Source of the DNA: Actinomadura sp. KC345
GTDB taxonomy: Bacteria; Actinomycetota; Actinomycetes; Streptosporangiales; Streptosporangiaceae
Assembly (NCBI RefSeq): GCF_004348515.1
Contig: NZ_SMKH01000004.1
Coordinates: 1 to 64,000, forward strand
Direction of reading: 5' to 3'
DNA: 64,000 nt
This document shows positions 57,126 to 59,389 of the stretch, piece after piece. Each line of letters starts with the position of its first letter. The first letter of the stretch is position 1. The notes under the pieces are model-generated. The model saw nothing but the letters and a program-made list of their open reading frames with translations. It searched no databases and was not told where the DNA came from. A program made the translations under genes and the position numbers.

Positions 57126-58085
57126 TCACCACCTCCCGAGGGCCTTGGCCAGCGCGGTCGCGGTGGAGGCGATCACCTTGTCGTCGTGGGCGGTGTCGTC
57201 GGCGTTGCGGTTGGTGAACACCGAAAGGATCATCGGCGCCTTCGATCCGGGTACCCAGACGATCGCCACGTCGTTGGCGGTGCCGTGGTTGCCGGCGCCG
57301 CCAGTGCCGGTCTTGTCGCCGACCGTCCAGTCCTTGGGCAGGCCCGCCCGGATCCGGGTGGCGCCGGTGAGGCTGGCCTTCAGCCAGCCGACCAGCCGCG
57401 TCCGGTCGCGGTGGTGGAGGGTCTCGCCGGTGGTGAGCTCGGTGAAGGTTCGTGCGGCCGCCGCGGGGGTGGTGGTGTCGCGCACTTCACCGGGCTCCCA
57501 CTCGGTCAGCCAGGGCTCCGGCCGGTCCAGGCGGCTCGTCCGGTCACCGGTGGCGCGGAAGAACTCGGTCAGCCCGCGCGGTCCGCCGATCTGCTTCAGC
57601 AGCGTGTTACCCGCGAAGCCGTCGGATTTCGTGATCCCGGCACGGCACAGTTGCGCGGGTGTCATGCCGGTGTCGGTGTATTCGGTGGTCTCTGGGGAGT
57701 TCTCGGTCAATCCAGCCATGTCGGCGGGCTTCCAGCGGAGCACCTTGTCCATCAGCCCTGGCTCGTGGGTGCGCGCCTTGCCCAGGACTGCCGCGCACGC
57801 GAACACCTTGAACATGGAGTTGAAGGGGAAGCGCTCGCCGGCCCGGTAGCCGACCTTCCGACCGGTCCCCAGGTCGATGCCCATCGCGCCGATGCGCCCG
57901 TCGTAGGACTTCTCGAGTTCCTGCAGCGTCCGGTTCAGGCCGGCGTCGGCGGGGACGCCGCTCCCCGTCCGGACGACGACACCGGAGATGCTCCTCTCAT
58001 CGGCGCCTGCACCCGTCACATAGGCGATGCCGCCCAGCATCGCGGAAGCGGTCAATGCCGCGACCCCCAGTCGCAGTCGTGTCAT
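57126..58085 (-). CDS. Class A beta-lactamase-family protein with altered SDN and Asn170 positions
   Basis: 319 residues from the ATG at 58085, giving a standard signal peptide (LRLGVAALTASAMLGGIAYV); an ATG eight codons upstream is possible. Active-site Ser and Lys are in SMFK, Glu166 in the RPEPWL omega loop, and KTG in VGDKTGTGG. The SDN motif reads SDG, and the residue after EPWL, normally the deacylation-water Asn170, is Thr. Overall length and the DTTTPAAAARTF stretch fit secreted actinomycete beta-lactamases. Activity may be weak or altered, or the protein may serve another serine-hydrolase role. Confidence 0.82.
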   Translation of the reverse strand: MTRLRLGVAALTASAMLGGIAYVTGAGADERSISGVVVRTGSGVPADAGLNRTLQELEKSYDGRIGAMGIDLGTGRKVGYRAGERFPFNSMFKVFACAAVLGKARTHEPGLMDKVLRWKPADMAGLTENSPETTEYTDTGMTPAQLCRAGITKSDGFAGNTLLKQIGGPRGLTEFFRATGDRTSRLDRPEPWLTEWEPGEVRDTTTPAAAARTFTELTTGETLHHRDRTRLVGWLKASLTGATRIRAGLPKDWTVGDKTGTGGAGNHGTANDVAIVWVPGSKAPMILSVFTNRNADDTAHDDKVIASTATALAKALGRW

Positions 58086-58125
58086 GCCGAAGAGAAGATC
58101 AGAAACCATCGGGAGATGTCCAATA

Positions 58126-58165
58126 CCGATATCGGAAATTCGGCCATATCGATATGCATATCGAT
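58126..58165. promoter_or_regulatory. AT-rich palindromes in the beta-lactamase / phytase-like divergent gap
   Basis: CCGATATCGG (58126-58135) and ATCGATATGCATATCGAT (58148-58165, an 18-base perfect palindrome) lie 41-80 bases before the beta-lactamase start and 130-170 bases before the start at 58295. They are unusually AT-rich for this DNA. They probably bind a repressor of the beta-lactamase gene; its family is unknown, and no such regulator gene is adjacent. Confidence 0.5.
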
Positions 58166-58294: not shown

Positions 58295-59389
58295 ATGTGG
58301 TCACGTAGGTTGCTCATCCTCGCGTCCGGGCTGACGCTCGGCGGCGCGGTCGGCGCCGTCCCCGCCGTTTCCGCCGCGGCGCCGGTGCGTCACGGGCTCG
58401 CGGCGTGCTCGCCGTCGGCGTCCCTGCTGGGCTTCTCCGACGCGCTGGACAAGACCCGGTTCAACGGGACGGCGGTCTCCGGGCTCTCCGCCCTCGCCGT
58501 CACCCGGCCCGGCCGCGCCGTCACGCTGGTCGACAACATCGGCACCAGCCCGGCCCGGATGTACGGCCTCTCGGTGCGGCTCCGTCCCGGCCGCGGGCCG
58601 CACGCCGCGACGCGCGACGTGACCACCCTCAGGCGTCCCGACGGCACCCCCTACACCGGCGCGGACCTGGACGGCGAAGGACTGGTCGCCGAGCGCGGCG
58701 GACGGACCGTGCTCGTCGCCTCCGAGACCGAGCCGTCCATCCGCCGCTTCGGTGTCCGGGACGGCCGCCAGCGCGCCGAGCTGCCCGTCCCCGGGCGGTT
58801 CCGCGTCGCCCCGGCGGGCGAGGCCGCCGGCAACCAGACCTTCGAGGCGCTGACCGCCACCGGCGATGGGCGCACCCTTTACGCCGGGATGGAGGACTCG
58901 CTGTCCAGCGACGCCGCCGGCATCACCCGCATCCTGCGCTACGACGGACGCTCCGGCCGCGGCTACCGCCCGGCCGCCCAGTACGCCTACGCGACCGACC
59001 CCGGCCTCGGCCTGGTCGAACTCGTCGCACTGCGGGACGGCGGCCTGCTCGCCCTCGAACGCGGATGGACGTCGGGGGTCGGCAACACCGTGCGCGTCTA
59101 CGAGACCTCCACGCGCCGCGCGGCCGACGTCTCGGACGTCGCCTCGCTCCCCGCCGGCGCGACCGCCGTCCTCGGCAAGAGGCTGCTCGTCGACCTGGTG
59201 GACTGCCCGCCCTCCGGCGCCACCGCCAAGCAGCCGCAGCCCAACCCGCTGCTCGACAACATCGAGGGCATGGCGCTCGGCGGCCGCACCTCACACGGAC
59301 GTCACGTCCTGTACCTGGTCTCGGACGACAACGCAGGCGCCACGCAGATCACCCGCCTCTACGCGCTGGCCGTGCGCGTCCCGGCCTGA
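58295..59389 (+). CDS. Secreted esterase-like phytase-family protein
   Basis: 364 residues from an ATG with GGAAGG upstream. A signal peptide (LLILASGLTLGGAVGAVPAVSAAAP) is followed by a beta-propeller of the family described as esterase-like activity of phytase: GFSDALDKTRFNGTAVSGLSALA, YTGADLDGEGLVAERGG, ASETEPSIRRF, NQTFEALTATGDGRTLYAGMED and LLDNIEGMALG. Members are exported and often lie near phosphatases; substrates are poorly known. The endonuclease/phosphatase gene follows 54 bases later, so both may serve extracellular phosphate scavenging. Confidence 0.82.
   Translation: MWSRRLLILASGLTLGGAVGAVPAVSAAAPVRHGLAACSPSASLLGFSDALDKTRFNGTAVSGLSALAVTRPGRAVTLVDNIGTSPARMYGLSVRLRPGRGPHAATRDVTTLRRPDGTPYTGADLDGEGLVAERGGRTVLVASETEPSIRRFGVRDGRQRAELPVPGRFRVAPAGEAAGNQTFEALTATGDGRTLYAGMEDSLSSDAAGITRILRYDGRSGRGYRPAAQYAYATDPGLGLVELVALRDGGLLALERGWTSGVGNTVRVYETSTRRAADVSDVASLPAGATAVLGKRLLVDLVDCPPSGATAKQPQPNPLLDNIEGMALGGRTSHGRHVLYLVSDDNAGATQITRLYALAVRVPA

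Follow-up and report, generated by a model that had tools for sequence, protein, structure and literature searches.

The window analysed here, a stretch of 64,000 nucleotides from the soil actinomycete Actinomadura sp. KC345, carries a gene (Table 1) that probably, with a probability of about 0.7, encodes a secreted and catalytically competent class A beta-lactamase of a distinct clade found mainly in Streptosporangiales. As judged from comparative evidence, the enzyme would have a shifted substrate spectrum and serve as a specialised second beta-lactamase within a probably inducible regulon that includes a LysR-type regulator gene and a PBP. Residues 132 and 170 are textbook substrate-binding and catalytic residues of class A enzymes; this protein has Gly132 and Thr170 and so falls outside the canonical subgroup defined by SDN and N170.

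Table 1. Features of the beta-lactamase gene and its promoter region in the window
Feature	Position	Strand	Remarks
Class A beta-lactamase gene (SDG at 130-132, Thr170)	57126..58085	-	319 aa, no internal stop
Thr170 codon, protein residue 194 (E166 is residue 190)	57504..57506	-	sequence and alignment
SDG triplet, Ambler 130-132, protein residues 154-156	57618..57626	-	sequence and alignment
Putative -10-like TGATCT	58096..58101	-	16 nt after TTGGAC, 10 nt before ATG; like spacing in relatives
Putative operator/promoter element ATATCGGTATTGGAC	58118..58132	-	last six bases TTGGAC, -35-like
18-bp perfect palindrome ATCGATATGCATATCGAT	58148..58165		recurs, with changes, in most clade promoters; putative regulatory role

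The open reading frame matches Pfam PF13354 (E 5.4e-34) and scores 269.3 bits against the NCBIfam class A model (bla_class_A, NF033103), for which the cut-off is 200. Its AlphaFold model (mean pLDDT 86.6; residues 1-44 unreliable) has a predicted class A fold and matches 5e43, the Sros_5706 beta-lactamase of Streptosporangium roseum, with Z 44.6 and an rmsd of 1.0 over 268 aligned residues at 55% identity. This is also the closest solved structure (phmmer, 294 bits); however, it has SDN and N170 where the present protein has SDG and T170, and it lacks both the 3-residue insertion before position 105 and the 2-residue insertion after KTGT. The N-terminus carries a hydrophobic stretch without a lipobox Cys that by eye resembles a Sec-type signal, and the 319-aa protein is probably secreted. 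The start at ATG 58085 is supported by comparison: almost every relative keeps an in-frame ATG at a distance of 46-47 nt, counted from where the promoter element begins.

The initial annotation had described SDG in place of SDN and Thr in place of Asn170, with the Ser, Lys, Glu166 and KTG residues remaining, and both halves of that description are borne out. In alignment with solved class A enzymes, SDG falls on SDN and EPWLT on EPELN, ungapped at both sites, which rules out a misalignment hiding a true SDN elsewhere. S70 and K73 (NSMFK; protein residues S90 and K93), S130 and D131 (KSDG; S154 and D155) and the omega-loop E166 (E190) are invariant across 32 aligned rows, and K234-T-G is intact (DKTGT). 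Further departures in the protein are Asn at 69, Asn at 105, Pro at 165 and the 2-residue insertion after KTGTG. Residues 69, 105 and 165 were weighed as additional oddities; the first two vary widely among SDN relatives too.

The two substitutions define a clade. A family-wide search of 341 GTDB-family genomes (own included) found a match at E 1e-20 or better in 271 and a close relative, at 66-87% identity with the query excluded, in 31. Below the clade there is a single 63% match, which is the SDN sister and comes from one of these 31 genomes, followed by identities of 58% or less. The family genome search and a related-loci search together gave 33 distinct clade proteins, from Actinomadura, Nonomuraea, Microtetraspora, Planomonospora and two Streptomyces. 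G132, T170 and E166 are present in all 33. Residue 105 is N in every member, residue 69 is N in 32 and D in one, and the 2-aa insertion after KTGTG is present in all except L003. Values of dN/dS in 14 within-clade pairs range from 0.12 to 0.55; the clade is under purifying selection, with values up to 0.55 in some pairs indicating moderate constraint only. Since all 33 members share both residues under these dN/dS values, the G132/T170 pair is not a chance occurrence, and the same observations rule out a pseudogene or sequencing error.

The nearest sister is a second copy in A. kijaniata (L049, the same as L094), which has SDN and N170 yet keeps N69 and the insertion; A. kijaniata carries both forms (L017/L041 with G/T, L049 with SDN/N170). 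This sister joins the clade at 100/100 in a 93-row tree from which the two trait columns had been removed, so that, most simply, both changes lie on the clade stem. The 93-row tree leaves out L134; a 101-row tree leaves out L134, the repeats L111 and L115, the odd or long L063, L065, L119, L124 and L133, and 15 of the 33 near-alike clade rows. The clade is separate from the BlaC-like subgroup, a branch of G132/N170 enzymes with C69: in the 93-row tree its 33 members stand apart on starred branches, and the BlaC-like rows of the census described below (L120, L082, L099, L102), with C69 and N170, are on another starred branch.

The gene is preceded by a regulon element, ATATCNATATTGGAC, with 1 mismatch. 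When the 8.27-Mb own genome was searched with this pattern at no more than 1 mismatch, three sites were found and none with the control, namely the G132/T170 gene, a canonical SDN/N170 class A paralogue (C360:4627) and a LysR-PBP intergenic region. In the last of these (L075; G000:C360:1-5319), the element at 549-563 lies between two divergent genes: one for a LysR-type regulator, truncated where the contig ends, and one for a 549-aa PBP that has a MecA_N domain, a transpeptidase domain and the motifs STFK/SCN/KTG. In motifs and length this PBP can be likened to PBP-R of S. clavuligerus, which has 551 aa and the same motif set according to a review (PMC9146315), and it may be a low-affinity PBP. 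The canonical paralogue is located ~3 kb from the LysR-PBP pair on the same contig; an MFS gene that looks like those noted below adjoins this paralogue. Because the element is common to the gene, the canonical paralogue and the LysR-PBP region, the G132/T170 gene is probably beta-lactam-inducible, presumably through binding of the LysR-type regulator to the element. Control by BlaI was considered and rejected: the three BlaI homologues of the genome are on contigs that contain no element site. In AmpR-ampC and in S. cacaoi BlaA/BlaB, a LysR-type regulator is linked to the beta-lactamase genes, whereas in the present system the neighbour of the regulator gene is a PBP gene, and the element precedes beta-lactamase genes of classes A and D, and other genes, at unlinked loci.

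The element is conserved in front of the clade genes. Among 34 promoters (33 clade members and the sister), 29 contain it with no more than 3 mismatches, while the control, a reversed pattern, gives 4-7 mismatches in each. In L016 and L022, two of the remaining five, the TTGGAC half is still in the same place; L018 and L046 have no element match, and placement in L020 is unreliable. The closeness of the -10-like hexamer to the ATG, together with the conserved ATG spacing, suggests that the beta-lactamase mRNA is probably leaderless.

Beyond these promoters, the element was found in 56 of 65 Actinomadura genomes (own included), at 125 sites with 0 control hits. Thirty of these sites, one from each of 30 genomes, were read as loci; class A genes account for 23 of them, class D genes for 4 (two of the four proteins were run against NCBIfam, and both passed the class D cut-off) and LysR-PBP pairs for 3. 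A further 12 genomes of other genera, chosen for carrying the G132/T170 clade, gave 29 sites and 1 control hit; 11 sites precede the G132/T170 gene, 2 a canonical class A gene, 1 an SDG class A gene and 1 a class D gene, 11 are at LysR-PBP pairs, and 1 PBP1-like and 2 MFS genes, named by eye, complete the set. The two sets together make 59 sites in 42 genomes besides the own one; each of these sites adjoins class A or class D beta-lactamase, LysR-PBP, PBP1-like or MFS genes, and the element apparently marks a compact, beta-lactam-specific regulon. The class D (OXA-like) genes with the element (L080, L084, L088, L090, L165) belong to Actinomadura and a relative, and an MFS gene of similar appearance to those above follows one of them. 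The MFS transporter genes, in two Nonomuraea-group genomes, and the PBP1-like gene (L166, L191 and L179) are possible further members of the regulon. SDG class A genes with C69 (BlaC-like) and the element upstream occur in Actinomadura and a relative (L082, L086, L099, L102, L177), and L086 seems to have undergone internal deletion or decay in the region of the omega loop.

A comparison of 19 loci (18 G/T genes and 1 sister) plus the window, based on crude gene calling, found no conserved neighbour genes; its second largest cluster consisted of antisense frames of the beta-lactamase gene itself. In the window, a divergent gene for a phytase-like esterase (58295-59389, +) starts ~210 bases from the beta-lactamase ATG, and the other clade loci showed no such conserved neighbour. 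The protein could in principle be a serine hydrolase whose substrate is some other amide or ester, with the canonical substrate-binding Asn132 missing and an esterase gene divergently upstream. This is very unlikely, as the class A residues, the fold and the promoter element all point to beta-lactams and none of the 19 loci or the window has a conserved neighbour suggesting another substrate.

Published enzymes offer partial precedents for each change. N132 and N170 are usual but not required in class A, as BlaC of Mycobacterium tuberculosis and Bla1 of S. clavuligerus are without N132 and GES-1 and GES-5 are without N170. GES enzymes keep SDN, and BlaC itself presumably keeps Asn170. BlaC, an active class A enzyme with Gly132 in its SDN loop like the G132/T170 clade, is treated among the Asn170 enzymes in a simulation paper (PMC9379904). 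Replacement of its Gly132 by Asn raises the rates with nitrocefin, imipenem and aztreonam, lowers those with cefoxitin and ceftazidime (PMC8284444), and enables clavulanate hydrolysis (PMC8284444; PMC10874438). S. clavuligerus Bla1, from the cephamycin C cluster, is an actinomycete class A enzyme with STFK, SDG and KTG; its SDG is a likeness to the present protein, but it has N170 (EPELN) and sits in a biosynthetic cluster (PMC9146315). The GES enzymes show natural variation at residue 170 (G in GES-1, N in GES-2, S in GES-5) with differing carbapenem rates, although T170 is absent from the GES variants given (PMC9379904, PMC7895804). In KPC-2, N170A leaves kcat/KM for ampicillin unchanged and lowers that for cephalothin tenfold, and imipenem deacylation becomes ~2800-fold slower (PMC7895804).

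On the basis of these precedents, acylation in the G132/T170 enzyme would proceed via S70, K73 and S130 and deacylation via E166, with the water held by Thr170 in place of Asn170. Loss of both Asn side chains would widen the pocket around the substrate side chain and the 6(7)-alpha face. Penicillins would be turned over well, as would bulky or 7-alpha-substituted (cephamycin-like) cephalosporins, while carbapenem turnover is predicted to be very slow and sensitivity to clavulanate is expected. This spectrum is drawn by analogy with KPC-2 N170A, residue 170 in GES and the BlaC Gly132 variants, the KPC-2 case having Ala, not Thr, in an SDN background. Cephamycins as the natural target are a guess, helped by the SDG of S. 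clavuligerus Bla1 and its site in the cephamycin cluster (PMC9146315). The enzyme would work as a specialised second enzyme beside the canonical SDN/N170 paralogue, both in one regulon; consistent with this role, 27 of the 31 genomes with a clade member contain one or more additional matches to the query.

That another class A gene is usually present would also suit a slow or non-deacylating class A relative, in which fast acylation and slow release would make a beta-lactam trap or a sensor feeding LysR. In favour of this, the changes affect the two positions responsible for placing the deacylating water and the side chain of the substrate, imipenem deacylation falls steeply in KPC-2 N170A, and the gene is within a regulon containing a LysR regulator. 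Such a trap or sensor is nevertheless unlikely: E166 is kept clade-wide, penicillin turnover is kept in KPC-2 N170A (PMC7895804), BlaC and GES enzymes with G132 or with G or S at 170 are active, and a stoichiometric trap would be costly. The functional suggestions of the initial annotation therefore fare unequally. The idea that the spectrum is unusual, or that some substrates are turned over slowly, gains support from BlaC Gly132 and from residue 170 in KPC-2 and GES, whereas binding without turnover and action on another amide or ester are disfavoured by E166 in 33 of 33 members, by the ampicillin kcat/KM kept in KPC-2 N170A, and by a promoter element common to canonical class A, class D and PBP genes.

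Residues 132 and 170 appear to vary together. In a census of 94 distinct class A proteins, N132/N170 was found in 55, G/T in 34, G/N in 4 and N/S in 1; one G/T row, L111 of the Streptomyces group, lies outside the clade. With L111 as the query, a match was found in 239 of 295 genomes, and 30 loci from this search, a non-random sample since they are the best matches to one query, comprise N/N 8, N/S 8, G/T 5, G/H 5 and G/N 4 (L135 and L163 among them repeat census rows L111 and L115). Across both sets, T or H at 170 occurs only with G132 and S at 170 only with N132; T170 with N132 was seen in 0 of 56 N132 rows in the census and 0 of 16 in the L111-search rows. The five Streptomyces enzymes L140, L142, L144, L156 and L160 combine SDG with His170 (EPELH or EPDLH), and eight other class A enzymes from the Streptomyces search pair SDN with Ser170. 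In the trees the G/T pair has two starred origins, the second in a Streptomyces lineage (5 of 30 rows). With 4-5 independent changes found in all, 3 independent pairs link 132 with 170 (sign test p 0.25-0.5), too few for significance, and coupling is suggestive, not proven.

The two origins also bear on whether this is an ordinary class A beta-lactamase in which both changes are nearly neutral and the spectrum is the same as that of the paralogue. BlaC and S. clavuligerus Bla1 show that SDG can be tolerated, and G, S or N occurs at 170 in GES enzymes. We regard near-neutrality as improbable, because every one of the 33 clade members has the pair, which evolved on two occasions, and single changes at either site shift substrate profiles (PMC7895804; PMC8284444). 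A shifted spectrum remains the preferred reading, and it may tentatively be extended to a coupled switch. Here, Asn132 to Gly would free Asn170 to become Thr or His, and a recurrent G132/T170 type, reached at least twice, would be dedicated to bulky or 7-alpha-methoxy beta-lactams (actinomycete cephamycins) under a LysR-type regulon co-controlling class A and class D beta-lactamases, a low-affinity PBP and an MFS pump; this wider proposal is possible rather than probable.

Searches of open-licence full texts found neither "SDG motif" with class A beta-lactamase nor an N170T beta-lactamase. The available portions of open-licence literature on Nonomuraea class A beta-lactamase gave no description of the G132/T170 clade, and none of a LysR-PBP-beta-lactamase regulon came up among the open-licence papers listed for LysR or S. 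cacaoi regulation. SDG alone is already known, in BlaC and S. clavuligerus Bla1; the clade-fixed G132/T170 pair under a LysR-PBP promoter element is new as far as these searches go. As A. kijaniata holds both forms, including a living sister with the ancestral pair, natural enzymes are enough to test whether 132 and 170 are coupled. The regulon is outlined in actinomycetes outside Streptomyces and bears on the origin of resistance genes and their control.
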